A stretch of DNA of 64,000 bases. Source: Gluconobacter cerinus (GTDB lineage: Bacteria; Pseudomonadota; Alphaproteobacteria; Acetobacterales; Acetobacteraceae). The notes under the pieces are model-generated. The model ran no database searches. It was not told where the DNA came from and worked only from the letters and a program-made list of their open reading frames with translations. This document shows positions 9,430-36,620 of this stretch, piece after piece. The position numbers were made by a program, and so were the translations under genes. How positions within the stretch are numbered: the first letter of the stretch is position 1; every line of letters begins with the position of its first letter. The DNA lies in contig NZ_BEWM01000004.1 of the NCBI RefSeq assembly GCF_002723935.1, positions 186,001 through 250,000 of the forward strand, in the 5' to 3' direction.

Positions 9430-9630
9430 ATGGAAAAACGCTGGGTTCTTCTGACAATCATTATCCTGATCGCCGGGCTTATCATGATACTGCTGTGGGC
9501 CAGACAGACCGACCCGGGCACGATTGGCCCGGACACCCATACGGAAAAGACGGCCCCTCAAGCTTTGAACGCGGCACATCCATATTTATGGAGCCCCGCG
9601 TACAATCAAAGAGTTTATGAAGTTGGCTGA
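9430..9630 (+). CDS. Small membrane-anchored protein, 66 aa
   Basis: ATG 9430 is preceded by AAGGAG (9415-9420) at nine bases. The product opens MEKRWVLLTIIILIAGLIMI, a clear single membrane helix, followed by a short polar domain of about 40 residues (ARQTDPGTIGPDTH onward) that would probably lie outside the cytoplasm. It sits about 100 bases after the CHAD gene on the same strand and ends eight bases before the convergent TonB receptor gene. I do not recognise the family. Ribosome site and helix make a real gene likely; function unknown. Confidence 0.6.
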   Translation: MEKRWVLLTIIILIAGLIMILLWARQTDPGTIGPDTHTEKTAPQALNAAHPYLWSPAYNQRVYEVG

Positions 9631-9638
9631 GATTTGCT

Positions 9639-20589: not shown

Positions 20590-20988
20590 ATGGAACGCAG
20601 CCCTGTCAGAACGAGGAAACAGTTCAGAAGCGGAAACCAGAAAAAACCGTTACGTGAGAGGCTCCTGCAGAGAACTGAAACTTTCTCAGACCCATACGCC
20701 GATTGCCTCAAAGAACGGATGTAAAGTCTGCGTCATGATCTCGGCAGAAGGCTTCCACCATCGCTCAAATGCGTGCGTTGAAAAATATGAAAGCTGTGAA
20801 TTTTTAAATTATTCCTGCATTTTTCGGTCTTGGCTCGACAGTAATGAAGCGCCTGAATGACGGGAACTTGAACGCAACGCATCAGTGAAGTGCCGCGTCA
20901 GGAGTCTGTACGGTGACAATGGCTACGGCTTTGTCGGTTCGTGCTACGATGCCGCAAGTCTGAACGCATTGACCTCAAGGACCACACA
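20590..20988. other. Intergenic region, no gene seen
   Basis: About 400 bases separate the divergent gluconate permease and the flavin oxidoreductase. Short open frames exist on both strands but none has a convincing ribosome site or family look. An AT-rich patch around 20785-20820 could hold a promoter. I found no clear palindrome, riboswitch or RNA gene. Confidence 0.5.
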
Positions 20989-21987
20989 ATGATCCCGTTT
21001 TCTGTTCTTGATCTTTCAATCATCACACGGGGCGCAGGCCCTCGTGAGGCGTTCAGGAATACAATCGATTTTGCCAAATTAGCAGAAAATCTGGGGTTTC
21101 ATCGGTACTGGCTGGCTGAACACCATTCAATGCCGGGAATTGCGTCTGCGGCAACGGCTATTCTGATTGGTCAGGTGGCTGGGGCAACGACCCGTATCCG
21201 AGTGGGCTCTGGCGGGATCATGCTCCCAAATCACTCGCCCCTTGTTGTCGCAGAGCAATTTGGAACATTGGAGACGCTCTTTCCTGGCCGCATAGATCTG
21301 GGTCTAGGCCGGGCACCAGGGGCTGATCAGAGAACAGCCCGTGCTCTGCGGCGCGATCCATCAGCACCTGACAGGTTTCCGGAAGATGTGGTTGAGCTTC
21401 TGCATTACTTCGAGCCCATGGCGGCGGAAGATACGCATTTGATACGTGCCATTCCCGGAATGGGCCTGCGCGTTCCGGTCTGGATTTTGGGATCGTCTCT
21501 GTTTTCGGCCGTTCTCGCCGCCCAGTTAGGGCTACCGTATGCCTTTGCATCTCACTTCGCGCCAGCACAGATGGAGGAAGCCATTGCCCTCTATCGGTCG
21601 CGGTTTGAGCCGTCTGAGAGGTGTGCGCGGCCTCACGTGATGCTGACCGTCAATGTCATTGCAGCGGATGAGGAAGCGGATGGCAAGCGTCTCGCGACGT
21701 CGCTATACCAGTATTTTATGGCTTTGCGCCGCGGGCGGCCTATCGCGTTTCCACCTCCTGTCAACAATATCCTGTCGTTGTGGTCGGTAGAGGAGCAGGC
21801 GTTGCTTGAGCAGACACTGGCTTATACGTTTTCTGGGTCCAGAGAGAGTGTGACGGGACAACTGAGACATTTCTTGGAACGCCACAAACCTGACGAGCTG
21901 ATGGTGGCAGTCCCGATTCATGATCAGGACAGTCGCAAGCGTTCGCTTGAAATTACAGCCAGGATCAAGGCAGACGTGGGGGCTTGA
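20989..21987 (+). CDS. LLM-class flavin-dependent oxidoreductase (YhbW-like)
   Basis: A 332-residue luciferase-like monooxygenase fold protein. The start ATG 20989 is preceded by AAGGA at nine bases. Motifs typical of this single-subunit subgroup are [23 protein letters not shown] (from residue 38), [43 protein letters not shown], and the late SGSRESV segment. The family binds reduced FMN or F420 and oxidises small molecules; here FMN is likely, but substrate is unknown. It is monocistronic and converges with the nine-gene operon: its TGA abuts the opposite-strand stop at 21988, with no spacer and the two stops forming TGATCA. A link to that operon is not shown. Confidence 0.85.
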
Positions 21988-23199
21988 TCAAGCCTTTGAC
22001 ATGCGCCGCTTCAGGTCCTGATGGATTTGAATGAACAGGTCTCTCTGGGCGTGACTGCCACCAATGTCCTGCAAGTGAGGAAGCGCAGCGTTGAAGGAGA
22101 GCAGGGCTGAAGCGTTTTCATTGTGAAGATAGGCGTTTAGCCCACGGGCTAAAGGAATGCCCACCAGATCCCACGCTCGCTGATCTGGTAGGCTTTGCCC
22201 GGAGAGGCCCTCGATACGGCGCAGCAGATGCTGCCCTTCCGGACGATGGGCGCGGAGTAGTCCGTAAAGATATTGCAGGGTCAGAAAGGGCTGACTGACA
22301 TCGTCTTGCCGTGAAGCGAGCCAGTTCGCAAGGTCCGTCCATCGGTCCTCGACATCAGCTCCCGCCAGCTCCAGACGGACCAGAAGGGATACTGCGCCAA
22401 CCTGATCCTGTGAGAAGCTGCGTTCTCTGGTCCAGCAATGCTGGTCATAAACGGAGACAGCGTCGCTTACCCGATTGCGTGCAAGGTAAAAGAGAGCCAG
22501 ATGCCACCATAGGTGCGTGTCCATGAAGGAGGTCAGCGTTTTCCAGCCAGCACACCGCTCTTCAAGAAACGCGGTACCTTCATCAATGCGTCCCTGCGTC
22601 AGGTAAACATGAGCAAGGGCATGTTGGGCCCACGGCTCCGATGCATCCATGGCAAGGGCTGTGCGGGCAGAACGCTCAGCAGCAGGTAAATCGTGGCACT
22701 GCTCATAGGCAAAAGCCAGCATACCGTGCAGGGCGGCAACGTCTCCGGCGGCATCTTCGCTGCGTAACGCAACGGCCAGCATGTCCTCAAAGCGGCCTCG
22801 AATGAAATCGTGATACTGGCGAAGCTTCAAAGTCACCAGATCACGCGGCCATTGGGAAAGAATACAATCTGTCAGGCGAATAATAGCCTCTGGATCGTCC
22901 GCAATAGAGGCCTCCAGAACTGAAAACAGAAGCTTTTCACGCGGAAGGGCATTGGTAACGGATTGAGCTGCGCGTTCATGATATCGGCGCGCTTCCGACG
23001 GAACATCACCTGTTTCAGACAGCATCCAGAGCAACCCGGCATAGGTGTTTGCCAGACAGTCTTCGGACTGATCTGCAACTTCAAGAATTTTGACCAGACG
23101 CAGGTCATATCCAAGGTAACCAAGGATAAAATCATTGATGCCAGCGATCGTGGACGCTTGGTCAGCAGAAATATCGTTGTTCAGAACGTCCTGAGTCAT
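21988..23199 (-). CDS. Tetratricopeptide-repeat protein, TTC38-like
   Basis: A 403-residue alpha-helical protein without signal peptide or membrane helix. Helical-repeat character is clear in AALHGMLAFAYEQCHDLPAAERSARTALAMD and PWAQHALAHVYLTQGRIDEGTAFLEE. The overall layout (VTLKLRQYHDFIRGRFEDM, DTHLWWHLALFYLARN, LAWDLVGIPLARG-like end) matches TTC38-type proteins found in many bacteria and animals, whose function is not established. It is the last gene of the nine-gene operon and overlaps the hydrolase gene by four bases, so it is translated together with uptake and catabolic enzymes. A scaffold role is possible, but that is only inference. Confidence 0.75.
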   Translation of the reverse strand: MTQDVLNNDISADQASTIAGINDFILGYLGYDLRLVKILEVADQSEDCLANTYAGLLWMLSETGDVPSEARRYHERAAQSVTNALPREKLLFSVLEASIADDPEAIIRLTDCILSQWPRDLVTLKLRQYHDFIRGRFEDMLAVALRSEDAAGDVAALHGMLAFAYEQCHDLPAAERSARTALAMDASEPWAQHALAHVYLTQGRIDEGTAFLEERCAGWKTLTSFMDTHLWWHLALFYLARNRVSDAVSVYDQHCWTRERSFSQDQVGAVSLLVRLELAGADVEDRWTDLANWLASRQDDVSQPFLTLQYLYGLLRAHRPEGQHLLRRIEGLSGQSLPDQRAWDLVGIPLARGLNAYLHNENASALLSFNAALPHLQDIGGSHAQRDLFIQIHQDLKRRMSKA

Positions 23200-24059
23200 G
23201 GCGCCTCTCCGGGAGAGGGGGAAAGTCGCTGAAGTTCTTTTTCAATGTACTGGTTTACGACATCAGGCTGTTCCAGCATGATTTGATGACCACAGTCTGG
23301 CAGGATATCCAAGGTGCTGGCGGGAAGGAAATCATCTACTTTTCTGACTTCCGCCAGAGGGACGATGCCATCGTTCTGACCCGCAAGAATATGCACGGGT
23401 TTGTCAAAATGGCGCAGGATTTCCGTATTGACCGGGGCCGCACCTGAACGGACAGCATTGATCATGAACAGGCTGTTGCGCTTCGTCGCCTGACGCTCGG
23501 TTTTGAGTATCTCTGGATCTACGTCTGGAGCCCATGCCAGCTTCTCGAAGCGCGCCTGTAAAGCCGGTCTTGCAAACGAGGCGATCCAGAAGGGCAGACG
23601 GTCCATCCAGTTTCCAAACATCGGTCCCTTCAGGGACGGGGCAAGAGATGCTGGCCCCAACAGAATGAGGCCATCAACGGGTATGTCCTCTCCAGCAGCA
23701 AGTAATCCGGAAATCCATTCCAGCGTGATGCGGCATCCAAATGAATGAGCGACGATGATACGTTTGCGCGAGGGGAACGCTGCCAGAACAGCGGCAAGGT
23801 CTTGTACCGAAAACCGACTGGCAAAAACCTGTTCGTGCTTGGAGCGCGCACTCTCGCCATGTCCAAGCGCATCCCATGCGACGAGATTGACAGGCTCTTT
23901 GGAAAACCGGTCCCATTGCAGCCGCCACTGCTGACGGTTCCCACCCAATCCGTGCACGAAAAAGAGCGTTGTGTCACTTCCTGCCTGTTTTGAAGAGACG
24001 GCAAGCCTGCGGCCTGGAACGCGGAAAAATGTTTCTGCTGGTGGAATTGTCTCAGTCAT
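23196..24059 (-). CDS. Alpha/beta-fold hydrolase
   Basis: A 287-residue cytoplasmic hydrolase. ATG 24059 is chosen although the frame is open to 24296, because it gives a compact family-sized protein and overlaps the upstream stop by eight bases. Seen are the oxyanion motif HGLGGNRQQW (36-45), WDALGHGES (62-70), the nucleophile elbow AHSFG with Ser106, the acid in GQNDGIVP and the catalytic His in LPDCGHQIMLEQP. By family it could cleave an ester, amide or C-C bond. It is eighth in the operon between the P1 peptidase and the TTC38-like protein, suggesting that it processes a product of the imported compound. Confidence 0.83.
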   Translation of the reverse strand: MTETIPPAETFFRVPGRRLAVSSKQAGSDTTLFFVHGLGGNRQQWRLQWDRFSKEPVNLVAWDALGHGESARSKHEQVFASRFSVQDLAAVLAAFPSRKRIIVAHSFGCRITLEWISGLLAAGEDIPVDGLILLGPASLAPSLKGPMFGNWMDRLPFWIASFARPALQARFEKLAWAPDVDPEILKTERQATKRNSLFMINAVRSGAAPVNTEILRHFDKPVHILAGQNDGIVPLAEVRKVDDFLPASTLDILPDCGHQIMLEQPDVVNQYIEKELQRLSPSPGEAP

Positions 24060-25080
24060 GGCTGGTATTCCTCCCAAAACGTTCCTGCCACGTGGGGCGA
24101 GTGGGCTCACCCGGCAAGGGCGATGCCTCATAAACGCCGCGCGCGATCGCTCGGGCTGTGACCTGCGTGGCCGTATGCAGAATTTCGGTCCACTCCTCAA
24201 TGGAAGCGGGCGCGGGTGCATCGCCTGTAGCGATGCCGAACACTGCGTCTCCATCCTGTGGGAGATGCGCGGGGAAAACGCCCCGTGCGACGCCATCCTG
24301 CGCCAGAATGGCCAGCCGTTTGGCTTGCGCTTTCGTCAGGGTGGCATCAGTTGCAATAACGCCGATTGTGGTTCCAGCGACGTAATTCGGCTTCATGCGG
24401 AGTTTGAGGTCATCTGCTGTCAAATGAGGCGGGAAACCGAGCCCTCCGAATTCCGCGTCCTGTTCGAAAGGCGCGCTCCAGAAGTGCGGTCCGTCTCCAA
24501 CTGTGGCCGTCCCGACAGCATTGACGACCATAAGCGCTGCGACCGTGTGCCCGCTGGAGGTTATGGCGCTGGCTGATCCAAGTCCCCCTCTCACGGTCGC
24601 GGTGGTTGCGCCCGTTCCGGCGCCTTCGGTCCCTAGTTTGAAGGGACCGTGAGATGCTGTTTGTGCGGCCTGATAGCCCAGTTCCGCATAAGGCGAGTAT
24701 CGCCCCCAGTCTTTATCCCCTCCGTTCACGAGGTCAAAAAGACTGGCCTGCACCACAATAGGCACACGGACCTGGCCTTCCGGCGTAGGAAGAGCGTCAA
24801 ACTCTCCCCTTAGCCATGCCTGAACGCCGGCAGTTGCATCCAGACCATACGTCGATCCACCGGAGAGTACGATGGCGTGAATGCCATCGACCAGCATTTC
24901 TGGCTCCAGTAGCGCGTTTTCCCGAAGTGCAGGGGCTCCGCCAAGAAAGCTGCCTGAAGCGACAACTGGCCGGTCGAACACAAGCGCCGTCACGCCAGTT
25001 CTTTGTTGAACATTGCGCACATTTCCGACGCGAATGCCCGGAATGTCCGTGATGAGATTATGGCGAGTTCTGGAAGTCAT
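24052..25080 (-). CDS. P1-family (DmpA-like) aminopeptidase
   Basis: A 342-residue member of the P1/S58 Ntn-hydrolase-like family, which self-cleaves into two chains and includes DmpA and beta-peptidyl aminopeptidases that remove unusual N-terminal residues such as D-Ala or beta-Ala. Seen: NLITDIPGIRVGNV at the N-terminus, IVLSGGSTYGLDATAGVQAWL (70-90), GTEGAGTGATTATVRGGLGSAS (150-171), and GTTIGVIATDA (236-246), where the predicted self-cleavage and nucleophile (Thr here, Ser in DmpA) should lie. No signal peptide, so it acts in the cytoplasm on imported material. It begins 12 bases after the upstream ATPase gene, the only non-overlapping junction in this operon. Confidence 0.85.
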   Translation of the reverse strand: MTSRTRHNLITDIPGIRVGNVRNVQQRTGVTALVFDRPVVASGSFLGGAPALRENALLEPEMLVDGIHAIVLSGGSTYGLDATAGVQAWLRGEFDALPTPEGQVRVPIVVQASLFDLVNGGDKDWGRYSPYAELGYQAAQTASHGPFKLGTEGAGTGATTATVRGGLGSASAITSSGHTVAALMVVNAVGTATVGDGPHFWSAPFEQDAEFGGLGFPPHLTADDLKLRMKPNYVAGTTIGVIATDATLTKAQAKRLAILAQDGVARGVFPAHLPQDGDAVFGIATGDAPAPASIEEWTEILHTATQVTARAIARGVYEASPLPGEPTRPTWQERFGRNTSHD

Positions 25081-25092
25081 GGTGGTGTGATT

Positions 25093-25869
25093 TCAGAGGC
25101 TGGCGTTGATGAGGGCGCGGGTTGTTGGGTGTTGAGGGTGCGTCAAAACGTCCGCTGCAGGCCCCGTTTCGACAATTCTCCCACCATCTAAAACAGCAAT
25201 ACGATGTGAAATGTGTCGGATTACAGCCAAGTCATGGCTGACAAAAATATATGACAACCCATGACGCTCCTGCAGATCCAGCAAAAGGTTCAGAACGATG
25301 GCCTGAGTGGAGACGTCCAGCGCCGAAACAGCCTCGTCGGCCACGATAACATCGGGGCGGGTTACGAGCGCGCGGGCAATTGCGATACGCTGTCTCTGGC
25401 CACCTGAAAATTCCCTCGGATAGCGGCTGATGGCGTCTTCCGGCAGAGCTACGTCCGCCAGAACGTCAAGAACACGACGGTTCCTCTCTTCAGCATTCAA
25501 ACCGGTCTGATAAAGAGGTTCTGCGACGATTTTTTCAACGGTCTGCCGAGGGTCCAGAGCTCCTTGTGGGTCTTGGAAAATCATCTGGATGTGGGGTCTG
25601 AAGCGGTGTCGGGCAGTGCCGGTGGGGGAGGTAATATCCTGTTCTTCAAAGAAAATCAGACCACTTTTGGCACCGACCAAACCCGTAAGGATACGAGCCA
25701 ACGTGGATTTTCCGCTCCCAGAGGACCCAATAAGTCCCAGTGTTTCGCCCCTATCTACGTGAAGCGAGACATCTTGTAGAATGGTCCTCGGTTTCTGGGG
25801 GCGAAACAGCGATGTTCCCCGGCCTGCAACATCGTACTGGATATTCCGGGCTTCCAGAAGGTGGCTCAT
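25093..25869 (-). CDS. Peptide-type ABC transporter ATP-binding protein (DppF-like)
   Basis: A 258-residue ATPase of the dipeptide/nickel importer family. Walker A GSSGSGKST (48-56), MIFQDPQGALDPR (96-108), signature SGGQRQR (155-161), Walker B VIVADEA (174-180) and the switch HD in FVSHDLAV. Its start overlaps the stop of the DppD-like gene by four bases. With the DppD-like ATPase it would form the heterodimeric motor of the importer. It ends shortly after the HPTTRALI motif, without the usual C-terminal zinc or oligopeptide extension, so it is compact for the family. Confidence 0.9.
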   Translation of the reverse strand: MSHLLEARNIQYDVAGRGTSLFRPQKPRTILQDVSLHVDRGETLGLIGSSGSGKSTLARILTGLVGAKSGLIFFEEQDITSPTGTARHRFRPHIQMIFQDPQGALDPRQTVEKIVAEPLYQTGLNAEERNRRVLDVLADVALPEDAISRYPREFSGGQRQRIAIARALVTRPDVIVADEAVSALDVSTQAIVLNLLLDLQERHGLSYIFVSHDLAVIRHISHRIAVLDGGRIVETGPAADVLTHPQHPTTRALINASL

Positions 25870-26699
25870 GGCTCCACCCCAGACGCCAGATTTTCTGGCA
25901 CTGGCAGGCGTGTCAGCGGCGGATGGTTCACTCCGTGCAGGGACATGCTCAGTAAAGCACGTGTATATGGGTGCTGAGGTGCTGAAAAAAGTGTTTCCGT
26001 CTTTGCGTTTTCCACGAGTGTCCCGTGTTGAAGAACCAGAACATGACGGGCTTTATGGCGGATCAGGCCCAGATCATGGGAAATCATCAGAATGGCCATC
26101 TGATTTTCAGAAGCAAGATCCTGGACCAGATCCATGATCTCGGCTTGGGTTTGGCTATCCAGTGCGGTTGTGAACTCGTCAGCAATCAGCAGTGCTGGTT
26201 TGCACGCGATTGCGATAGCCAAGAGCACACGCTGTCGCTGACCGCCTGACAGCGTGTGAGGGTAGTCGCTGGCTGAGATGCCTGCGCGACTGAGGCCAAC
26301 ACGATCCAGAAGCTGATGAACGGCCTCTTTGATTTCGCGACCTGTCATGGCGGTGTGCAGTCGGAACGTATCCCCGATTTGCTGACCAATCCGACGGATT
26401 GGGTTAAGCGCGGTCATGGGTTCCTGAAAAACCATGGCAATCTTCTGACCGCGCAGGCTTCGAAACTGGTGCTCCGGAAGAGAAATGAGGTTCTGGTCTT
26501 CAAACAGAGCCTGACCTGACGTTTCAAAGCCATCAGGGAGCAATCCCATAAGCGTACGGGCAAGCGTGGATTTTCCCGACCCAGACTCTCCTGTGACAGC
26601 AACGGTTTCACCAGCGTTTATGGTGAAGGACAAAGGATGCAAAATAGCTGTGGAGCCAGCATGGACTGACAAATTTTGAACGGACAGAAGGCTGGTCAT
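25866..26699 (-). CDS. Peptide-type ABC transporter ATP-binding protein (DppD-like)
   Basis: A 277-residue ATPase paired with the DppF-like subunit. Walker A GESGSGKST (37-45), the Q-loop region MVFQEPMTALNPIRRIGQQ (89-107), signature LSGGQRQR (150-157), Walker B LLIADEFTTALD and HPYTRALL near the end, which is the C-terminal mark of oligopeptide ATPases. ATGA overlaps at both ends tie it to the permease and to the DppF-like gene. Substrate of the importer is not determined by this subunit. Confidence 0.9.
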   Translation of the reverse strand: MTSLLSVQNLSVHAGSTAILHPLSFTINAGETVAVTGESGSGKSTLARTLMGLLPDGFETSGQALFEDQNLISLPEHQFRSLRGQKIAMVFQEPMTALNPIRRIGQQIGDTFRLHTAMTGREIKEAVHQLLDRVGLSRAGISASDYPHTLSGGQRQRVLLAIAIACKPALLIADEFTTALDSQTQAEIMDLVQDLASENQMAILMISHDLGLIRHKARHVLVLQHGTLVENAKTETLFSAPQHPYTRALLSMSLHGVNHPPLTRLPVPENLASGVEP

Positions 26700-27529
26700 G
26701 ACGGCTGTCCTTTCAGCCGATTGAAAGGGCGCTCCAGAAGGTCACGCAGGCCGTCGCCAAGCAGATTAAACCCGAGCACCAAAACCATCACGGTCACACC
26801 TGGAATTGCAACAAGCAGGGGATGGTCAAAAATATGGATTTGATAAGACGCGAGCGTTCGTCCCAGATCCGGCTGAGGAGGCGGTGCCCCAAGCCCCAAG
26901 TAGGATAGGCCGGCCTCTGAGAGAAGGGCCAACGCCAGAGAGGTCGAGGCATGAACGATCAGGATAGGCGCGATGTTCGGAAGAACATGGCGAAGGATCG
27001 TATCGATTGAGTTCAGTCCGGCCATGCGTGCGGCTGCAATGTAATCGAGCACAAGAATGGAGTGTGCAGCCTGGCGTGTAATCCGGATCTGGGCTGGAAT
27101 GCCGAAAAGGGCAATAGCGAGAATTTCGCCCGTGGCAGAGGCGCCTTGCGCTGTGACGAGCATGGCGGCGATCAGAATAGGTGGAAAAGCCAGTCCCAGA
27201 TCTGCTGTGCTCATCACGGCTTTGCCGCGCACACCGCCGTAAGCCGCGACGAGCCCCAAGGCTGTCCCGATGACTGTCGCGAGTGTCACCGCAATTACGG
27301 CGATTACCGTGCTGTTGAAAGCCCCTGTCAGGACATAACTCGCAATGTCACGTCCGAACGGGTCCGTCCCCAGCGGGTGGGAGAAAGAGATCGGAGCGTA
27401 ACGATGCGCGATATCAATCAGAGGAGAGCGGCCACTCCGCCAGATCCACGTAAGTGTTGCTGGGACAAGGCACGCCAAAAGAAGGGCACTTCCAGCAATC
27501 AAACTCCTGTTCGTGCGAAGCCGGGTCAT
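26696..27529 (-). CDS. Peptide-type ABC transporter permease (DppC-like)
   Basis: A 277-residue inner-membrane permease. The N-terminal helix is followed by HPLGTDPFGRDIASYVL, a DppC/OppC signature, and the coupling loop is AARMAGLNSIDTILRHVLPNIAPILIVHAS. About six membrane helices are visible. Overlaps both neighbours by four bases. Forms the channel with the DppB-like subunit. Confidence 0.9.
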   Translation of the reverse strand: MTRLRTNRSLIAGSALLLACLVPATLTWIWRSGRSPLIDIAHRYAPISFSHPLGTDPFGRDIASYVLTGAFNSTVIAVIAVTLATVIGTALGLVAAYGGVRGKAVMSTADLGLAFPPILIAAMLVTAQGASATGEILAIALFGIPAQIRITRQAAHSILVLDYIAAARMAGLNSIDTILRHVLPNIAPILIVHASTSLALALLSEAGLSYLGLGAPPPQPDLGRTLASYQIHIFDHPLLVAIPGVTVMVLVLGFNLLGDGLRDLLERPFNRLKGQPS

Positions 27530-28476
27530 GCCCTTTCTCCTGCAAGGCGCGGGTCTAACCAGCGCACAACGATGGAAAGTGCCAGATTGAGCAGCAGGAC
27601 ACCCGCGACAATCAGCATGACAAGGTTTTGTACGACCGGAATGTCACGCTGGTTCACGGCTTCCAGAAGCAGTTTTCCGCAACCGGGAATATTGAACACG
27701 CTTTCGACAATGATTGCCCCAGTCACCAGAACGGGAAGCTGAATGCCGATCAGTGTTAGAACTGGGATCAGTGCGTTTGGAATGGCGACTTTCCAGAGAA
27801 CGCCCTTGCCGCTGTAGCCTTGAGCACGTGCTGTCCGGATAAAGTCCTGATTCAGAACATCGATGAGAGAGGAGCGCATGAAGCGTGCTGTGATGGCTGC
27901 CTGGGGGATGGCCAGCGCGACTGTGGGCAGGAAAAGAGCTCGCAGTCCGGTAAAAAATCCTGCGTTCCAGCCCGTAAATCCTCCTGCCGGAAACCAGTGC
28001 AGCGTCAGGGAAAACAGCAGCGTCATCATCATGGCCAGCCAGAAATCCGGAATGGATTTGAGGAACTGCAACGTTGCCATGACGGCAAGATCAAGACCTT
28101 TTCCACGATGAGTGGCTGCGATGGCGCCCGTGGGTAACCCAATGAGAAGAGCGAGGCCCGTAGCCAGCAGGATCAGAGGGAGGGTGCTCTGGAAGCGCTC
28201 AAAGATCAGCCCACGAACGGGGACATCATAGGCGTAACTCGTGCCAGCCTCTCCGTGCAGCAGGCCAGAAATCCAGCGCACATACCGTGTTGCGGGGGAA
28301 ACATCGAGGCCTAGCTGGTGATGGAGAGCCGCAATGCTGTCCGGGCTTGCATCCAGCCCAAGCATCACTGTGGCCGGATCCCCCGGAAGGAGGTTCAACA
28401 GAGCGAACACGATCACACTGGCGACTGTGAGCACCACCAGTCTTCCTGAAATGGCAGAGGCAAGATTGGTCATCAT
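27526..28476 (-). CDS. Peptide-type ABC transporter permease (DppB-like)
   Basis: A 316-residue inner-membrane permease. The start ATG 28476 overlaps the binding-protein stop (ATGA), so I prefer it over the upstream in-frame ATG at 28530, which would lie inside the binding-protein gene. N-terminal helix RLVVLTVASVIVFALLNLLPGDPATVMLG is the classic DppB opening; the coupling segment is TARAQGYSGKGVLWKVAIPNALIPVLTLIG, and the segment ESVFNIPGCGKLLLEA is also diagnostic. Third gene of the operon. Confidence 0.9.
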   Translation of the reverse strand: MMTNLASAISGRLVVLTVASVIVFALLNLLPGDPATVMLGLDASPDSIAALHHQLGLDVSPATRYVRWISGLLHGEAGTSYAYDVPVRGLIFERFQSTLPLILLATGLALLIGLPTGAIAATHRGKGLDLAVMATLQFLKSIPDFWLAMMMTLLFSLTLHWFPAGGFTGWNAGFFTGLRALFLPTVALAIPQAAITARFMRSSLIDVLNQDFIRTARAQGYSGKGVLWKVAIPNALIPVLTLIGIQLPVLVTGAIIVESVFNIPGCGKLLLEAVNQRDIPVVQNLVMLIVAGVLLLNLALSIVVRWLDPRLAGERA

Positions 28477-29951
28477 GGTTGCCACGTCACATCTGCCATA
28501 GGGCAGGCTGCGATCTGCTGGTCGATCCATAACCCGGAGATACGCCGGTTCAGAACTGTGTCCCGAGGGCGGGAATACAGGAAGACGTTGGGCTCGTCCT
28601 GCGCGAGGCGATCTTGCAGGGCGACGGAAAGCCGATGCCGATCCTCCGCGTTGTCACTGGCTTCATACTGTTCGAATAGCTCATGAAACTGCGGGTTCTT
28701 GTAATGAAAGTAGATGTTATCCCGATCGTAGATTCCGATGTCATGCGGCTCTGTATGGGCAATGACTGTCATGTCAAAAGAGCCCTGCCCAAAAACGCGT
28801 CCCAGCCATGATGGCCATTCCAGCGGTTGCAACGTGACGATCAGGCCAACCTGCTCCAGATAGGCGGCAACGATTTCGCTCGTATCGCGAGCATAGGTGA
28901 TGGGCGGGTAAGAGAGCGTCAGCTGCGTTCCCGGTTTGATGCCAGCCTCTTTGAGAAGCTCCCGTGCGCGCTCCGGATTATATGGATACCGATCGGGGAG
29001 TGCAGCATAGTCTGGGTCATTGGGAGCCATATGAGATTGCAGGACCGTTCCGTCTCCATCGGCCCCAGCCTGAATGAGGGCTTTTCGATCGATAGCGTAG
29101 GCAAGAGCCTGACGGACGCGTAGGTCATTGAATGGCCTGCGCGCATTGTTCAGTGCCAGAATGGCTTTGAACGGAAAGGTTCCACGTACGACCTTGAGGT
29201 TCGGGTTTCCTGCAAAACGGCCAAGAATTTCAGGGGCAGGGAATGACGGATAAGCATCCAGTTCTCCCGCCAGAAGCGCATTGCTGGCAGCAAGCGGATC
29301 AGGCATGAACCGGAATGTGACAGCCTTTAGTTCTGGCGCCTTTCCCCAATAATCGGGATTACGAAACAGCGTGACATGATCGCCTCTTTGCCAGGCTTGG
29401 AAGAGAAACGGACCTGTCCCTATGGGATGGCTGGCGTTCTTGTCTGCTGATGAGGGTGACAGGATGGAGGCATCATTCCACGTAAGCTCATAGGTGAAGC
29501 TGCCATGGGCTTTTTTGAGTGTGATATCTGCGTGGGTAGTGTCGGGGCAGCTCACATCCGCGATGTTTGTAAAGAATGTACGATCGGGGTTTGTGCTGGA
29601 CGTTGCTCCCGCACGTAAAAGAGAGAACCGCACATTTTCACAGGTGAGAGGAGTTCCATCATGAAAATGAACGTTCTCTTGCAAAGTAAAGTGATAAACG
29701 CGGCCCTCGTCTGAGACAGTCCAAGCCCGTGCAAGCAGAGGTTGGACGTGCCCGTCACGGTCTAGCCGGGTCAGGCCTTCAAAGACGTTGTTATATGTGA
29801 TTGTGCCGATGGCCTCGCTTGGGCTGCGGGTCGGGTCCAGGCCAGGCGGCTCAATGGAGACGCCAATGCTCATTGTATCGCGCGTCTGGGCCAGTGCGGA
29901 CGTACCCAGACTCAGACCAGCCATGGTTAAAAGCGCAAAAGATGACTTCAT
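28473..29951 (-). CDS. Peptide-type ABC transporter substrate-binding protein
   Basis: A 492-residue periplasmic binding protein of the SBP_bac_5 (DppA/NikA/GsiB) family. Signal peptide of about 21 residues ending TSALAQ, no lipobox Cys, so soluble in the periplasm. Family marks: IGVSIEPPGLDPTRSPSEAIG, the segment YNNVFEGLTRLDRDGHVQPLLARAW, the region HDGTPLTCENVRFSL, IGTGPFLFQAWQRGDHVTLFRNPDYWGK, and VRQALAYAIDRKALIQ. This family binds peptides, glutathione, nickel chelates, opines and aminopolycarboxylates; the ligand is not readable here. Overlaps the monooxygenase stop and the permease start by four bases each. Confidence 0.88.
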   Translation of the reverse strand: MKSSFALLTMAGLSLGTSALAQTRDTMSIGVSIEPPGLDPTRSPSEAIGTITYNNVFEGLTRLDRDGHVQPLLARAWTVSDEGRVYHFTLQENVHFHDGTPLTCENVRFSLLRAGATSSTNPDRTFFTNIADVSCPDTTHADITLKKAHGSFTYELTWNDASILSPSSADKNASHPIGTGPFLFQAWQRGDHVTLFRNPDYWGKAPELKAVTFRFMPDPLAASNALLAGELDAYPSFPAPEILGRFAGNPNLKVVRGTFPFKAILALNNARRPFNDLRVRQALAYAIDRKALIQAGADGDGTVLQSHMAPNDPDYAALPDRYPYNPERARELLKEAGIKPGTQLTLSYPPITYARDTSEIVAAYLEQVGLIVTLQPLEWPSWLGRVFGQGSFDMTVIAHTEPHDIGIYDRDNIYFHYKNPQFHELFEQYEASDNAEDRHRLSVALQDRLAQDEPNVFLYSRPRDTVLNRRISGLWIDQQIAACPMADVTWQP

Positions 29952-31276
29952 GGGGTCTCGCCGGGAGCCGGACGCTTGAGGCCCAGGTGCTCGCGCAGGG
30001 TGGAGCCCTCATAGGCTGTACGAAACAGGCCGCGTCTCTGAAGTTCTGGCACCACATGATCCACAAATGTTTCAAGGCTCTGCGGCAGAATGGGAGGCAT
30101 GACGTTAAACCCGTCTGCCGCACCTTCCACAAACCACTCTTCAAGCTGATCTGCAATCTCCTTTGGGCCACCATAAATGGACCAGTGGCCGCGAGCGCCG
30201 CTGACCTCCAGATACAGGTCTCGCAGGGTCATGTTGCGCTTTTTGGCCATCTTTACCAGAAGTGTCTGACGGCTACGGTTTCCGTTGAAGTCCGCGGGGG
30301 CTTCTGGAAGGGGCGCATCAAGGGGCAGACCACGCAGATCTGTGCCCGTCATGCCTCCTAGCAAAAACAACCCGACGTCAGGATGGGTAAGTTCATCAAG
30401 TTCACCCTTCAGATCTTCTGCTTCCATCTGTGTGCGACCAACGAGCGGATATACGCCTGGCATAACTTTCAGAGATGCAGGGTCCCGCCCGATTTCTTTC
30501 ATGCGGCGGTGGAGATCAAGGCGAAAAGCTTTTGCTTCCTCAAGGTCTTGCTGGGCGGTGAAGACCATTTCGGCAGTTTCCGCAGCCAGTTGGCGCCCCG
30601 GCTCGGAAGAGCCCGCCTGCACGAGAACAGGTCTGCCCTGCGGCGAGCGGGGAATATCGATCTGCCCCGCTGCAGAGAGAAACTCGCCTTTGAAATCAAA
30701 TGGACGCCGGCCTTCAGGCGCGAAGAATGCTCCGCTTTCTGTATCTCTCAGGAATGCATCGTCGGTCCAGCTATCCCAGAAATTCTCTACAATCTGTGCA
30801 AATTCGCGGGCCTGACGGTAACGGTCTGCATGCGGGACATGGCTTGGACGCCCGTAATGAATGGACTCCTTGACGTTGGCTGTCGTGACAAGGTTCCATC
30901 CAGCGCGTCCGCCGCTGATCTGGTCAAGCGAGAGGAACTGCCGGGCGAGGTGATAAGGCACCGAATAGGTGGTGCTGACAGTACCAATCAGGCCGATCTT
31001 ATCTGTTGTGGCAGCCAGTGCGGAAAGGAGCGTCAGAGGTTCGAAAGACGCCGCATATGTCATCCTGCGGAAGCCATCGATTGTCGCTTCGTCAATGGAG
31101 CTTGTAAAATCAGCGATAAACACGGCATCAAACAGCCCCCGTTCAGCGAGGCGTGCCTGTTCAAGCTGGCGTTTGAAATTGCTTCCTGCGTCAGGGGCGG
31201 ATCCTGAATGGCGCCAGGCTGCCGCATGATGGCCGGTCGGGAGAAGAAATGCGGCGAGTTTCATCTGGGGAGCCAT
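29948..31276 (-). CDS. FMNH2-dependent monooxygenase, NtaA/SnaA/DszA family
   Basis: A 442-residue flavin monooxygenase of the NtaA/SnaA/DszA group of luciferase-like proteins. These cytoplasmic enzymes use reduced FMN from a separate reductase to oxidise chelators (NTA, EDTA), organosulfur compounds or related amines. Start ATG 31276 gives MAPQMKLAAFLLPTGHH, the group's normal opening; the frame is open to 31333. Motifs: LAERGLFDAVFIADF, FEPLTLLSALAATTDKIGLIGT, the stretch DQISGGRAGWNLVTT with the RAGWNxVT signature, GRPVLVQAGSSEPGRQLAAETAEMVF, and GGPKEIADQLEEWF. It heads the operon, divergent from a TonB receptor. No flavin reductase is present nearby, so reduced flavin must come from elsewhere. 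Confidence 0.88.
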   Translation of the reverse strand: MAPQMKLAAFLLPTGHHAAAWRHSGSAPDAGSNFKRQLEQARLAERGLFDAVFIADFTSSIDEATIDGFRRMTYAASFEPLTLLSALAATTDKIGLIGTVSTTYSVPYHLARQFLSLDQISGGRAGWNLVTTANVKESIHYGRPSHVPHADRYRQAREFAQIVENFWDSWTDDAFLRDTESGAFFAPEGRRPFDFKGEFLSAAGQIDIPRSPQGRPVLVQAGSSEPGRQLAAETAEMVFTAQQDLEEAKAFRLDLHRRMKEIGRDPASLKVMPGVYPLVGRTQMEAEDLKGELDELTHPDVGLFLLGGMTGTDLRGLPLDAPLPEAPADFNGNRSRQTLLVKMAKKRNMTLRDLYLEVSGARGHWSIYGGPKEIADQLEEWFVEGAADGFNVMPPILPQSLETFVDHVVPELQRRGLFRTAYEGSTLREHLGLKRPAPGETP

Positions 31277-31331
31277 GGATCTTGATCTCTTGCTTATATC
31301 GCGGTCAGAAACACAAAAAATTGTTGCATCC

Positions 31332-31348
31332 ACAACATAACCTGTTGT
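31332..31348. promoter_or_regulatory. Inverted repeat ACAACA-N5-TGTTGT
   Basis: A perfect 6-bp inverted repeat with a 5-base spacer lies in the 153-base gap between the monooxygenase operon and the divergent TonB receptor. It shares the GTTGT/ACAAC half-site with the second, longer repeat 35 bases further on. It is too short and lacks a T tract for a terminator, so an operator is more likely. Confidence 0.45.
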
Positions 31349-31381
31349 GAATCGTTTTTCTATCCCTTAAACGCAATTAAA

Positions 31382-31403
31382 TAGTTGTTTCTATTAACAA
31401 CTA
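31382..31403. promoter_or_regulatory. Inverted repeat TAGTTGTT-N6-AACAACTA
   Basis: A perfect 8-bp inverted repeat with a 6-base spacer, 27 bases upstream of the TonB receptor ATG and in the shared promoter region of the nine-gene operon. Its half-site is like that of the repeat at 31332-31348. This pair is the best candidate binding site for a regulator controlling both directions; no regulator gene lies in the cluster. Confidence 0.5.
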
Positions 31404-31429
31404 AAAAACTTAGTTATTAGGCGGAACCG

Positions 31430-33787
31430 ATGCACGACGTACTTACTGCTCCGTACCGCAGGAATGCCCTCCTTGTTCGTGGGCGTATTGCACTGATTTC
31501 CAGCGTTGCATTTCTGCCGCTCTGGAATGTTGCTGCGGCTGCGGACGAGAATGCCCAGACGAAGAAGCCTGCTCAGGCTACGTCACGCAAGGGCAGCGCG
31601 CTTTCTGCAAAAGCTGCTCATGCACCGGCTGCGCCTAAAGTTCACGCATCTGAAGCCTCCCGCGTGGAAAACGTTGTCGTGACGTCGGAGCGCAAGGCAG
31701 ACAGCCCACAGAACATCGGTACGTCAATCAGCGTCGTTTCCGCAAAGATGCTGGAAAATCGGAACATCAACAATGTGTTCGATCTCCAGTACGCTACGCC
31801 CTCGCTTCAGATCCAGCCGTCCTACGGCAGTGGGCAGTTCACTTATACGATCCGCGGTGTCGGATTTAGCAATTACTCCAGCAACAATTCCCCGACTGTG
31901 GGTATCTATATTGATGAGGTAGCGAACCCGGTCCCGTTCGGTATCAACGGAATGATGTTTGATATGCAGCGCGTGGAAGTTCTGCGCGGGCCGCAGGGCA
32001 CGCTGTATGGTCGGAATACGACAGGCGGTGCGATCAACTATATCACGAACAAACCGACCGATAAGCTGGCGGGAGGCGTGAGTGCCCAGTATGGTCGTTT
32101 CGATAGCGCCAAGATCGGCGGATATATTTCCGGTCCAATCAACGACAAGCTGAAGTTTCGCCTGTCTGGCGAAACACAGCAGGGCGGGGCATGGCAGTAC
32201 AATCCTGAGGCTCAGGCCCATCTCGGGAACGTCAATCGTGGCGCGGCTCGCCTGTTGGTGGATTATACCCCGTCAGAGAGCTGGAAGGTGGAGTGGAACC
32301 TTCACGGTAGTCGGGATCGCTCTGACGGAACGGGCGTCTATGCGTGGGAGCCTATCACCAGCCTCAGTTCCACCAATCCAATGCCTGCGTCCACCAGTCG
32401 TTATAATACCCGCTGGGGGACTTCGGAGCAGTTTGCCAAAGAAACTGGTCTGACGCCGGATCAAAAGCCATACAGCCATATCGATACAGGTGGCAGCAGT
32501 CTACGGGTTGAGAAGCATCTCCGTGATTTCACGATTACGAACCTCGCCAGCTACGATTACATGCAGCGCGACGAATACGACAATTTCGATGATTCCTCAT
32601 TGTCTCTGGCGGACGTGAAGTTCAATACGCGGGCTAATGTCGTGGCCGATGAACTGCGTTTCTCATCCAATACATCTGGTCGGCTTCACTGGATTGGAGG
32701 CATTTACTACGGTCATCAGTGGCTGAATGACCGGTACCAGTCGGGGTTTGAGGCTCTTTACAATACGGATGGAGACGTCCGTTATTCGCAGACGGTCAAT
32801 ACAATCAGCGGTTTTGGTCAGGTGACGTATGACCTTACGCCAAAGCTGCAATTGGTTGGTGGCATTCGCGTCGAGCACGAGAAGCGCACCCTTGATAACG
32901 CCTATGCTCATTACCTCGTCGGCGGGGTGGTGACGAACCCGCAGAACGCTGTCGCCCAGCAGTCGCAATCCTATACGTTGCCATCTGCAAAATTCAGCAT
33001 TCAGTATCATCCGTTCAGCCATGACATGACGTATTTCACCTTCAGCAAGGGTGTAAAATCCGGTGGCTTCACGGTGTACAATTCATCTGACGTTACGCAG
33101 ATGACCAATCCGTTCAAGCCTGAACAGCTTTATTCTTTCGAAGTCGGAAACAAGCTGATCCTGCCAAGGTATAACCTGCGGGTGAATGCTGACTTCTTTT
33201 ATTATGATTATTTTGACCGTCAGGTTCAGTCCATCGCCTACAGCCCGACGACAGGCTCCGCGATTGGTCTGTTCGTAAATGCGCCGCGCTCCCATATGTT
33301 TGGTGGCGAATACGAAGTCGAATGGTCCCCGATCCCGGGGCTGCACGTGGCGCAGTCTGGGGCTTATGTCGAAGGTGCCTATGACAAGTTCAGTGCTGTT
33401 ACGAGCTCAAAGCAGGTCAATGGTGTTTGGGTCGGTGTCACGCAGGATGTATCTGGACGTGGAATTGAGGTGCCTCATTTTACGGCCAATGGTTCCGTCG
33501 ATTATACGTGGCGCGTTGGAAAATATGATCTCGTTTCAGGTGTGGATTACAGCCTGCGCACCACGAGTACGGCTCTGAACTCAGCCAATACCATTCCAGG
33601 CTATACGTTATGGGGCGGGTATATTTCGTTTGCGCCCCATAAGGGCCATTGGAAAATCGAGGGTATTGGTCGCAACATCACCGACAAGCACTATGACGTG
33701 ACACGCGGCTATTTTGTGGGTGGAGACAACATTGCAGTTGCTGGCCGACCAGCAACCTGGGAAGTCCGTGTTCGCGCAGACTTCTAA
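31430..33787 (+). CDS. TonB-dependent receptor divergent from the monooxygenase operon
   Basis: A 785-residue outer-membrane receptor. A signal sequence ends near NVAAAADE, then a Lys/Ala/Pro-rich linker (to about residue 75) leads to a TonB-box-like VENVVVTSERKAD. The plug has QNIGTSISVVSAKMLENRN, YTIRGVGFSNYSSNNSPTVGIYIDEV and VEVLRGPQGTLYGRNTTGGAINYIT. The barrel ends VRVRADF. This plug type (VGIYIDEV, NTTGGAINY) belongs to the large group of receptors in alphaproteobacteria that often carry non-siderophore substrates. Shared promoter region with the operon suggests that both handle the same compound: receptor across the outer membrane, ABC importer across the inner one. Start ATG 31430 has GGCGGA upstream. 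Confidence 0.9.
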   Translation: MHDVLTAPYRRNALLVRGRIALISSVAFLPLWNVAAAADENAQTKKPAQATSRKGSALSAKAAHAPAAPKVHASEASRVENVVVTSERKADSPQNIGTSISVVSAKMLENRNINNVFDLQYATPSLQIQPSYGSGQFTYTIRGVGFSNYSSNNSPTVGIYIDEVANPVPFGINGMMFDMQRVEVLRGPQGTLYGRNTTGGAINYITNKPTDKLAGGVSAQYGRFDSAKIGGYISGPINDKLKFRLSGETQQGGAWQYNPEAQAHLGNVNRGAARLLVDYTPSESWKVEWNLHGSRDRSDGTGVYAWEPITSLSSTNPMPASTSRYNTRWGTSEQFAKETGLTPDQKPYSHIDTGGSSLRVEKHLRDFTITNLASYDYMQRDEYDNFDDSSLSLADVKFNTRANVVADELRFSSNTSGRLHWIGGIYYGHQWLNDRYQSGFEALYNTDGDVRYSQTVNTISGFGQVTYDLTPKLQLVGGIRVEHEKRTLDNAYAHYLVGGVVTNPQNAVAQQSQSYTLPSAKFSIQYHPFSHDMTYFTFSKGVKSGGFTVYNSSDVTQMTNPFKPEQLYSFEVGNKLILPRYNLRVNADFFYYDYFDRQVQSIAYSPTTGSAIGLFVNAPRSHMFGGEYEVEWSPIPGLHVAQSGAYVEGAYDKFSAVTSSKQVNGVWVGVTQDVSGRGIEVPHFTANGSVDYTWRVGKYDLVSGVDYSLRTTSTALNSANTIPGYTLWGGYISFAPHKGHWKIEGIGRNITDKHYDVTRGYFVGGDNIAVAGRPATWEVRVRADF

Positions 33788-33793
33788 AAATGC

Positions 33794-33820
33794 GAGGGAT
33801 GGCGTTTTTTGCCATCCCTC
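33794..33820. terminator. Bidirectional intrinsic terminator
   Basis: GAGGGATGGC and GCCATCCCTC form a perfect 10-bp stem with a T-rich 7-base loop between two convergent TonB receptor genes. T runs follow on the plus strand (GTTTTT at 33825-33830) and, on the minus strand, GCATTTTTAG follows the stem, so it can serve both genes. Confidence 0.8.
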
Positions 33821-33829
33821 TGACGTTTT

Positions 33830-36520
33830 TCAGAACGAGGCCGCCACCGTGCCAAAGAACATGCGCGGAGGTGTAGGATAACCCACATACGTTGAGCCAT
33901 CTCCCGCGGTGATGGTGGACCAGGAGCGCGTGTTCGTCAGGTTGCTGACGTTGAACTGGAGCTTCAGGCTCTGCATGTGTGGGATATGCTTGAATGTATA
34001 ACCAGAGCTGAAACCAAGCTGGAACCTTGGTGGCACCATGACGGTATTCGTGATTGTACCTGGACGAACACCCATATAGGTTCCGAAGAGCTGAGCGTTG
34101 AAGCCTGCCTGATTGTAGTTGATGGCGAACTTGTCAGACCAGACGGGAATAGCCGGGACTTTCTCGCCTTTTGTTGCGTAAAGCGTGGTGCCGTCCATGA
34201 AATCGCTGCCATAAATGCTGCTGACATAGGATACGGCATCATAGATCGAGAAGTGCTGCCCGAACCGGAGTGTGAAGGACAGATCCATACCATTTGTTGA
34301 AACGCTGCCCAGGTTGGCTACAGTGCCACCCACGCCGGAAATTCCCTGATTAGGCGGCTTGATCGAGCCAAGACGATTGAAGAAATCGACATGGTAATAC
34401 TCAAGCTGACCACTGATCCCCGTGAGTGGGCCAAGAAACAGCGGCCGATTGGTTCGGATGCCTGTTTCATAGGTCCAGGACGTTTCCGGTTTTCCTGTTT
34501 TCTTGAAGTCTTCGAACGCTTCCTGGCTGGTCACGGCCCAAGGTGACGTGCTGCCATATCCGGTCTGGGCAAACGAATTCATGTTTTCCTGAATGTTGGC
34601 AAATAGCTGCTCATGGGGCGTGAAGCTCCACAAGGCACCAAAAGCAGGAAGAAAGGGTTTGTAAGACGGGATCGTTCCACCAGCCACTGTGTGAGTGCTG
34701 GTATCAACAATCGTTTTTGCACCTTTAACCGATGCTGCAAGTGACTGTGGCAAAGCAGCGACGGGCAACGTGCCGTTGGTATAAACCATCTCGGACTTGA
34801 AGCCTGCTGTCAGGGTCAGATGGGGCGTTACGCGCCAGCTATCCTGCAGGTGTGTGACAAACGTGTTCGTGTAGAACGCATTCATCCACTGAGTAAAAAG
34901 AGGATTGGTCGCGCGCTTATAAGGCGTCAGCGTGTCCGTTGCGGTGAGCGGATACCAAAGACGCCCTTGTGTATTGTTGTTGCGTTCGTACCATCCGCCA
35001 ATCTCAATATTATGGTGGCCCAGATGATAGTGCAGGGTGCTGGTCAGGCCTCCGCGATAGTCTTCATACTCCGTCGTACGAACAGCAAAACCCGTCCCGC
35101 CGGTTGCATTCCAGACCTTCGGGTCAATTCCGGCATTGCTATACGTAAACTGACCATTCTTGATGTATTTGGATCCAGTCGGGTCCAGGTAGCTCCCAAG
35201 GATCGTCAGGATAGCGTTGGTGCGAATAGACGTTGCGACCACGCCCGCGCCATCGTCATAATGAAAATAAAGCTGGTTATCCCACGTCAGATTTGGGGAA
35301 AATTTGTGCGAAATTTTCAGATAGGTGAAGTAATCGGTTCGCTGCGCTGCTGAGTAATAGTATTTATTATTGGGTGTTCCTGGAGCAGCGGATTTGGAGG
35401 TCATGGCAGGATAGTTGGCCATGGCAGCGTTCAAATCAGGGAAAAACGCACCGCGAGCATAGAGGTCTGTAGGCGCCGTCAGTCCTTGTGTGTTGGGCTC
35501 TGCCTTGTCCTGCCAGTCAAAATACGCCGTGATGGTGGTTTTTTCACCTTTATGAACAAACTTGCCATTTACCTGATAGCCACCCTGATTGTTTCCTTCA
35601 CCAAGATTCCAGGGTCTGGCGTCCTGTCGTGAGAAAGAGACATAGGCCGCGTTTCCATTACCAAAATTACCGGTGTCTAGGCGGGCATAGGTGCGAAACG
35701 TGGAATAGCTGCCGAAAGTCTGCCGGATTGTTGCGCCGGCTTTTGCTTTCGGGTCCCGCGTATTAAACTCAATCGTTCCGCCCAGGTTACTGGTGGACGC
35801 TGTTCCGAGTGCGCCCGCCCCAGAGGACAGGGACGTTTGGCCGATATTTTCGCTGATGGCTGCTCGTTGCGGGGAAAGGCCATTATAATTGCCATAAGCG
35901 CCTGCACCGAGCGGCACGCCATCAAGGGTGTAGCCAAGCTGGCTGTTGGAAAAACCGTGAACGTAAATGCTTGAGTTCTGCTCGTTGTTGCCCCAAGGAT
36001 CAACATTGGTGAACGTCACGCCCGGCAAGAGATCCAGAGCCTGCATCGGGTTCTGACCCGGCATCATTTCCTGCATCTGGTCGCCGCTGATGCTCAAGAC
36101 AGACCGCGTGCGATGGCCTGTTGCAACAATCTGCTCAATGTCGCGCTCATCCCGGGTCCGCGATGCGCGTATGTGCTTTGGGAGGCGTTTTGTAGCGGCA
36201 CCACGTCGAATGACCATGCCGCCGCCTGGAGCAACCTCGGCAACCAGGCCGCTCCCATTGAGCAACCGTGTTACGGCTGCGTCAGCTGACAGGTCGCCAT
36301 TAACGGACGGAGCCTCAAGGTGGTCCACCAGTTCAGGGGAGAAAATGACGCTCTGTCCGGTCTGTTGGCTCAGGGATTCCAGTGCCTGTGCCATTGGCTG
36401 ACGATTAATGTGAATATTCGCTGTGGCTGACGGTGTAGCCAGAGCAGAATGGGTCAGAATGGTCGTCCCTACAGTCAGAAGCAGAGCTGCGCGAAGGGGG
36501 CACCGGACGTTGACGGCCAT
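33830..36520 (-). CDS. TonB-dependent receptor with STN signalling domain (FecA-like architecture)
   Basis: An 896-residue transducing receptor. After the signal peptide (to about LATPS) there is an STN domain, residues about 35-105 (INRQPMAQALESLSQQTGQSV, then LNGSGLVAEVAPGGGMVIRR), which signals to a FecR-type anti-sigma factor. A TonB-box-like IEQIVATGH follows, then the plug with PMQALDLLPGVTF, the region YVHGFSNSQLGYTLDGVPLGAGAYGNYNG and GTASTSNLGGTIEF, and a large barrel ending FFGTVAASF. Encoded just downstream of FecR- and FecI-like genes. The plug is closely related to that of the receptor at 56359. Substrate unknown; the adjacent PhoD and the paralogue's phosphate genes point to a phosphorus compound rather than iron, which is inference. 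Confidence 0.9.
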   Translation of the reverse strand: MAVNVRCPLRAALLLTVGTTILTHSALATPSATANIHINRQPMAQALESLSQQTGQSVIFSPELVDHLEAPSVNGDLSADAAVTRLLNGSGLVAEVAPGGGMVIRRGAATKRLPKHIRASRTRDERDIEQIVATGHRTRSVLSISGDQMQEMMPGQNPMQALDLLPGVTFTNVDPWGNNEQNSSIYVHGFSNSQLGYTLDGVPLGAGAYGNYNGLSPQRAAISENIGQTSLSSGAGALGTASTSNLGGTIEFNTRDPKAKAGATIRQTFGSYSTFRTYARLDTGNFGNGNAAYVSFSRQDARPWNLGEGNNQGGYQVNGKFVHKGEKTTITAYFDWQDKAEPNTQGLTAPTDLYARGAFFPDLNAAMANYPAMTSKSAAPGTPNNKYYYSAAQRTDYFTYLKISHKFSPNLTWDNQLYFHYDDGAGVVATSIRTNAILTILGSYLDPTGSKYIKNGQFTYSNAGIDPKVWNATGGTGFAVRTTEYEDYRGGLTSTLHYHLGHHNIEIGGWYERNNNTQGRLWYPLTATDTLTPYKRATNPLFTQWMNAFYTNTFVTHLQDSWRVTPHLTLTAGFKSEMVYTNGTLPVAALPQSLAASVKGAKTIVDTSTHTVAGGTIPSYKPFLPAFGALWSFTPHEQLFANIQENMNSFAQTGYGSTSPWAVTSQEAFEDFKKTGKPETSWTYETGIRTNRPLFLGPLTGISGQLEYYHVDFFNRLGSIKPPNQGISGVGGTVANLGSVSTNGMDLSFTLRFGQHFSIYDAVSYVSSIYGSDFMDGTTLYATKGEKVPAIPVWSDKFAINYNQAGFNAQLFGTYMGVRPGTITNTVMVPPRFQLGFSSGYTFKHIPHMQSLKLQFNVSNLTNTRSWSTITAGDGSTYVGYPTPPRMFFGTVAASF

Positions 36521-36607
36521 GTATTCTCTATCCTGTTGGTGATCGCAGAAGGCGGTCTCAACAGGAAGACAAACGAAAACTGAAAAACCTCAGCATTGTT
36601 CAACGGT

Positions 36608-36617
36608 TTTCATGAAA
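36608..36617. promoter_or_regulatory. TTTCATGAAA palindrome, copy 1 (upstream of STN receptor)
   Basis: This 10-bp palindrome lies 88 bases before the receptor start, overlapping the end of the fecR-like gene. Read toward the receptor it is part of a 7-4-7 arrangement: ATGACGG-TTTC-ATGAAAA. Pho boxes have the same 7-4-7 geometry with heptamers related to CTGTCAT, whose complement is ATGACAG. It is also flanked by CGG/CCG, giving a longer imperfect inverted repeat. Confidence 0.5.
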
Positions 36618-36620
36618 CCG

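Follow-up and report, generated by a model that had tools for sequence, protein, structure and literature searches.

What does a tightly packed block of ten genes in Gluconobacter cerinus bring into the cell, and what do its enzymes do with it there? The block lies in a 64,000-nucleotide stretch of contig NZ_BEWM01000004.1 (positions 186,001 to 250,000; assembly GCF_002723935.1), which we call the window and whose coordinates are used throughout. Nine genes run on the minus strand from 31276 to 21988 and a gene for a TonB-dependent receptor runs the other way (31430-33787). The nine encode an FMNH2 monooxygenase of the luciferase-like (LLM) type, a Dpp-type ABC importer, a hydrolase of peptidase family S58 (P1), an alpha/beta hydrolase (ABH) and a tetratricopeptide-repeat (TPR) protein known here as TTC38-like, a label that stems from the first reading of the sequence. 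Gene order, coordinates, the eight junctions (six 4-base overlaps, one 8-base overlap and one 12-base gap) and the 153-base divergent gap given by the initial annotation were reproduced exactly from the open reading frames; in four of the ten genes an internal ATG was chosen as the start over the longest frame. Pfam and NCBIfam models at their curated cut-offs also agreed with the family labels first given, the TTC38 label apart. Comparison of the sequences suggests that the ten genes probably work as a single unit that imports and cleaves a scarce amide-bonded, peptide-like compound, and we hold with greater confidence that they represent a conserved module for the import and hydrolysis of amides or peptides.

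The initial annotation made its proposal depend on synteny in relatives, and synteny was indeed found, complete in five congeners and as a core elsewhere; it likewise supports the view that receptor and importer belong to one uptake-and-cleavage unit. Of 25 further Gluconobacter genomes, five have the TTC38-like gene (Gluconobacter sp. Gdi, G. frateurii, G. thailandicus, G. japonicus and G. wancherniae). Each of these shows the complete set of ten genes in unchanged order, and at one locus (L025) the flanking genes are different. Within the genus, conservation among the ten proteins is highest for the monooxygenase and, in most genomes, next highest for the receptor.

A scan with an alignment of TTC38-like proteins returned 25 loci: five from Gluconobacter, one from an Acetobacteraceae metagenome-assembled genome (MAG), one from Endobacter, ten from Caulobacter and eight from Reyranella or other alphaproteobacteria. 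The MAG locus (L060) reads receptor, amidase, solute-binding protein (SBP), DppB, DppC, DppD, DppF, S58, ABH and TTC38-like, which is the Gluconobacter order with the receptor inverted and with an amidase, whose identity was confirmed, in the slot of the monooxygenase. In Endobacter (L062/L026) the run from SBP through TTC38-like is preceded, in that same slot, by a protein that we describe as ATP-grasp-like only tentatively, since it has no Pfam match and a weak match to cyanophycin synthase (E 2.3e-4). The order is rearranged in the ten Caulobacter loci, where a receptor (38-42% identity) occurs in nine, the Dpp set in eight and S58 in seven; L063 and L066 are truncated by a contig end, and in L065 no S58 was detected though the sequence continues. 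By eye, ABH lies between receptor and TTC38-like gene in L061, L065 and L069, the three receptor-bearing Caulobacter loci with listed frames (Pfam confirmed it in L069), and an amidase stands beyond S58 in L061 and L069 (confirmed in the latter). L068 consists of TTC38-like and S58 genes only, with neither receptor nor importer found and no ABH seen next to the TTC38-like gene. A Tateyamaria omphalii plasmid (L107) carries P1 peptidase, ABH and TTC38-like genes consecutively, with dipeptide importer genes approximately 5-8 kb off, and in another family (L164) ATPases, permeases, SBP, S58 and TTC38-like are consecutive. None of the other nine cluster genes was found around the TTC38-like gene in the eight Reyranella and other alphaproteobacterial loci. 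Full synteny in five congeners, a core in the MAG and Caulobacter and parts elsewhere point to a real uptake-and-hydrolysis module with interchangeable parts.

A sister arrangement appeared around S58 genes. S58 occurs in 80 of 150 family genomes, and we opened 18 hand-picked loci from these. Four had a same-family receptor (48-54% identity) nearby, nine a sodium-solute symporter (one being the query's own) and two an SBP with both permeases. Receptor, inner-membrane transporter and S58 thus recur together, with ABC importer or symporter as alternatives. Sister clusters of receptor, S58 and sodium symporter occur in the Acetobacteraceae at L040, L041, L046 and L047, with an amidase in L041 and L046, the last being a separate locus of the same Endobacter genome. 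They share receptor family and S58 with our locus and differ in that the symporter replaces the ABC importer, which looks like one design served by a different inner-membrane transporter. No TTC38-like or ABH gene was found in them by tblastn, which also missed the Caulobacter ABH.

The importer of the window is complete and contiguous. It comprises a family 5 SBP (SBP_bac_5, 28473..29951) with a signal-peptide-like N-terminus by eye, DppB- and DppC-type permeases (BPD_transp_1, 27526..28476 and 26696..27529) and DppD- and DppF-type ATPases (ABC_tran, 25866..26699 and 25093..25869), all on the minus strand. All five components of Dpp/Opp/Gsi-type peptide importers are therefore in place; what sets this one apart is that a TonB receptor, S58, ABH and TTC38-like protein are linked to it, and that its proteins stay under the cut-offs that would name a substrate class (dipeptide, glutathione, nickel or opine) in all the equivalog models listed, which for the ATPases were the best 25 per protein. 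The receptor (31430..33787, plus strand) has Plug and barrel and no matched STN domain. Together, receptor and importer would carry the compound into the cytoplasm.

There, the two hydrolases would open amide or ester bonds. The S58 protein (342 amino acids, 24052..25080, minus strand) scored 184.9 bits against Peptidase_S58 (cut-off 23.9). Its profile placed ThnT of thienamycin biosynthesis (PDB 3tm1) first among solved relatives (E 2e-71), then polyamide (nylon) hydrolases and L-aminopeptidase/D-esterase. BapA and 1b65 (DmpA) came at the bottom of 22 solved matches, 1b65 last (E 7e-6), so the DmpA-like label first given is better replaced by ThnT-like. Thr237, which follows Gly236, is the predicted nucleophile of this Ntn-hydrolase and aligns with the conserved nucleophile position of ThnT, occupied by T, C or A across three ThnT sequences. 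ThnT lies in a biosynthetic cluster, whereas the S58 gene here is part of an import operon. ABH (287 amino acids, 23196..24059, minus strand) has an AHSFG nucleophile elbow at residues 104-108.

ThnT acts on pantetheine, A. suboxydans responds to pantothenate conjugates and the need for pantothenate is regarded as genus-wide in Gluconobacter. The locus might thus scavenge such conjugates (pantetheine or CoA fragments), the S58 enzyme freeing cysteamine and pantothenate in the manner of ThnT, its nearest solved relative. Pantoate-beta-alanine ligase (PanC, PF02569) was not found in the whole genome, which suggests that the strain needs pantothenate. However, the cluster is present in only 6 of 26 Gluconobacter genomes, set against a genus-wide need (the PanC search within the genus covered this genome only). 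Moreover, the control genome Caulobacter vibrioides has PanC while Caulobacter strains carry the core, and the M81 and amidase partners of TTC38-like genes, described below, do not point to pantetheine. We regard pantothenate scavenging as very doubtful.

The monooxygenase (Bac_luciferase, 29948..31276, minus strand) belongs to the NtaA/DmoA family TIGR03860, matching residues 1-422 of the 422-residue model at 527.7 bits (cut-off 279.7). Orthologues of 86-98% identity occur in 6 of the 26 Gluconobacter genomes, the same six as the cluster, and the next matches in the genus reach at most 41%; in 150 family genomes the top-scoring matches from beyond the genus share 50-54% identity, and plasmid matches stay below 60%. 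No LLM monooxygenase was found in the core loci outside Gluconobacter. Given close orthologues in six Gluconobacter clusters only, and an amidase or ATP-grasp-like protein in the slot elsewhere, the sequences indicate that the monooxygenase is a local addition and not a constant part of the module, and the initial annotation, which made it the defining step, is not supported on this point. Since it stands in the place of a relative's amidase, it probably performs an equivalent opening step, which would be an oxidative C-S or C-N cleavage of a modified substrate. No flavin reductase was identified by Pfam among the ten cluster genes, and the enzyme would draw on one encoded elsewhere; a genome-wide search for the Flavin_Reduct family gave four such genes outside the cluster.

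Operons for the degradation of ethylenediaminetetraacetate (EDTA) and nitrilotriacetate (NTA) pair EmoAB with a peptide-type importer, and the initial annotation had drawn an analogy to such chelate systems. The locus could accordingly be read as an uptake system for a metal chelate or metallophore that the monooxygenase breaks. It shares with these operons a TIGR03860 monooxygenase beside a peptide-type importer; the top solved match is labelled nitrilotriacetate monooxygenase (3sdo, 322 bits), NikA and opine-type proteins are among the SBP matches, and a TonB receptor is present. However, EDTA monooxygenase (5dqp, 222 bits) is a more distant relative than 3sdo or than YtnJ, MoxC and DszA (299-319 bits, YtnJ the highest), and the operon lacks a flavin reductase gene. 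Its other enzymes are amide/ester hydrolases, which dominate it and which other core loci keep where no monooxygenase was found. The receptor reached 125.6 bits against the siderophore-receptor model TIGR01783, under the cut-off of 223.5, and the NikA and Cnt equivalog cut-offs were not reached either. The analogy is therefore weak and we judge chelate uptake highly improbable.

The proximity to YtnJ, MoxC and DszA raises the question of sulfur. An S-substituted peptide or an N-acyl cysteamine or cysteine might be imported, its sulfur freed by the monooxygenase and the rest recovered by the hydrolases; this is a narrower form of the import-and-cleavage reading, and the probabilities of the two overlap. 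Among plasmid relatives of the monooxygenase (52-55% identity; 4 of 25 listed matches opened), one, at 54%, lies near sulfonate genes (ssuD and an aliphatic sulfonate binding protein), two are beside unspecified ABC importers and one is beside none. A second luciferase-like monooxygenase gene (20941-21987, plus strand) converges on the operon, with its end one base short of the operon's final stop codon, and is kept in four of the five sister loci (not found in L025). The operon has no sulfur-specific gene, however, and the cores outside Gluconobacter lack the monooxygenase. Organosulfur scavenging thus appears rather unlikely, and we are correspondingly cautious in naming a sulfur-containing amide as the Gluconobacter substrate.

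The last gene of the operon (21988..23199, minus strand) encodes the 403-residue TTC38-like protein, the most unexpected member of the set. It matched Pfam TPR_19 (27.9 bits, cut-off 25); no TTC38-named model in Pfam-A or NCBIfam matched it, and none of the 13 matched solved chains bears that name. The predicted structure is a TPR superhelix (pLDDT 93.8) with two HxxxH motifs, H193/H197 and H229/H233, in helices 189-201 and 224-240, the first helices of two successive TPR pairs. All 81 distinct sequences compared retain H193 and H233, and 80 retain H197 and H229; leaving out rows found by peptide pattern (62 sequences remaining), the counts are 62, 62, 61 and 61 for H193, H233, H197 and H229. 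Trp, Asp and Arg positions are near-invariant alongside the histidines. Placed on two neighbouring inner-face helices, the four histidines could form a metal site, and the protein would then contribute another, metal-dependent reaction, acting on the compound or on one of its fragments. We put it forward, from sequence conservation and the predicted model, as a candidate metal-dependent enzyme, an assignment that we consider plausible but stop short of favouring. In a homologue at L172 (G339:C39:3000-22500, approximately 9364-10557) H197 and H229 are replaced by D and L; from its sequence, this may be a paralogue that is inactive or has diverged. CDD groups StaR of the A47934 cluster with TTC38-like proteins; a literature search for StaR gave off-topic results only.

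The company that TTC38-like genes keep was surveyed class-wide: 102 of 385 genomes gave a match at 1e-60, and 40 places of 11.5-19.9 kb each were compared with 20 controls, each a 19.5 kb stretch of a genome in the same sample. A hydrolase gene lay within 1 kb of the TTC38-like gene in 19 of the 40 (ten M81, eight amidase and one S58) and in none of the controls; at least two Dpp-type components at 35% identity or higher were near it in 10, again against 0 of 20. The 19 hydrolase-linked places spread over 8 of 22 families, and the 40 places are not independent. In alphaproteobacteria, an M81 (MlrC-type) metallopeptidase gene directly adjoins the TTC38-like gene at L158, L160, L163, L166, L167, L168, L171, L174, L176 and L185. 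These data also bear on the possibility that an ordinary dipeptide importer stands beside unrelated hydrolases by chance, with the TTC38-like protein as a structural adaptor. Importers of the Dpp type are widespread, most TPR proteins serve as scaffolds and the fold matches are to Rap, APC/C and similar proteins. Such an assembly would, however, be hard to square with recurrence in several lineages, partly reordered, with its absence from the 20 control regions and with near-invariant His, Trp, Asp and Arg residues in a mere adaptor, and we consider it improbable.

Several observations weigh against the import-and-cleavage unit and the enzymatic role of its TTC38-like member. The structures matched by the fold search are generic peptide- or protein-binding TPRs, and a ligand or partner, in place of a metal, could be what the four conserved histidines bind. 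Amidase and M81 joined the queries after both had been seen beside TTC38-like genes (L060, L069 and L027, which lie outside the 40 places). Moreover, 21 of the 40 loci showed no S58, amidase or M81 gene in the stretch read and had varied neighbours, and S58 adjoins the TTC38-like gene in 1 of 40 only; TTC38-like proteins are therefore not tied to this system alone. Support for a common unit comes from the components' distance matrices, which correlate at r 0.82-0.99, but part of this reflects shared species descent, which inflates mirror-tree correlations. Finally, none of the four opened plasmid contexts of the monooxygenase has an annotated S58 or TTC38-like gene, in gene tables that are incomplete.

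The human protein named TTC38 offers a parallel, its likeness being that it is a TPR protein by name and its homology resting on the label. Panobinostat is a hydroxamate drug. TTC38 is a listed panobinostat interactor that the drug stabilizes in thermal profiling (PMC6885700, PMC7666118), together with other proteins such as zinc-finger factors and desaturases, and histone deacetylase inhibitors are reported to have iron-containing aromatic amino acid hydroxylases among their off-targets (PMC11587510). Rare, potentially damaging TTC38 variants are associated with raised urinary X-22162 (PMC7878905), and a TTC38 missense variant with the same unknown metabolite (PMC5780481). We found no enzymatic function for TTC38 in the literature searched, which excluded most subscription journals. 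If homology of the bacterial and human proteins is assumed, the drug data are consistent with a metal site. More speculatively still, sequence and model may hint at a new class of metal-dependent enzymes built on the TPR superhelix, present in bacteria and, by label, in people, in which HxxxH pairs hold a metal where other TPRs hold a peptide carboxylate. Bacteria would pair these enzymes with S58, amidase or M81 and TonB/Dpp import to dismantle unusual amides, and human TTC38 would perform related chemistry on X-22162.

The divergent promoter region (31277..31429) contains a block conserved across all six genomes, with an inverted repeat at 31329-31351 (TTCACAAC-N7-GTTGTGAA, one mismatch). 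The repeat is exact in L021, has one mismatch in the window, L022 and L023 and three in L024, and is degraded in L025. A site with up to three mismatches was present in 24 of 100 shuffles of the window; the strength of the repeat therefore lies in its conservation between genomes and not in rarity alone. A search of the 3.58 Mb genome at up to two mismatches revealed no regulon: one other site was found, with two mismatches, and the backwards control also gave one. The promoter scan returned fewer sites than shuffled sequence (3 versus 7.3), and the terminator scan showed no excess (12 versus 12.8). The longest terminator stem is a two-way hairpin (33794..33820) between the cluster receptor and an adjoining minus-strand cluster (33830-38059), which encodes a FecI-like sigma-70 region 4 protein, FecR and a STN-bearing TonB receptor (33830-36520). 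GC content is 0.553 for the ten-gene cluster and 0.550 for the window, so composition gives no hint of recent import.

Systems that couple TonB and ABC import to dedicated hydrolases are a well-known type; no description of this gene combination was found in the literature searched, which excluded most subscription journals. What the locus provides is a testable biochemical setting for the TTC38-like family: an operon with an SBP that can lead to the substrate, and four residues as targets for mutation. It would be unusual, if shown, for a TPR solenoid to house a metal centre.

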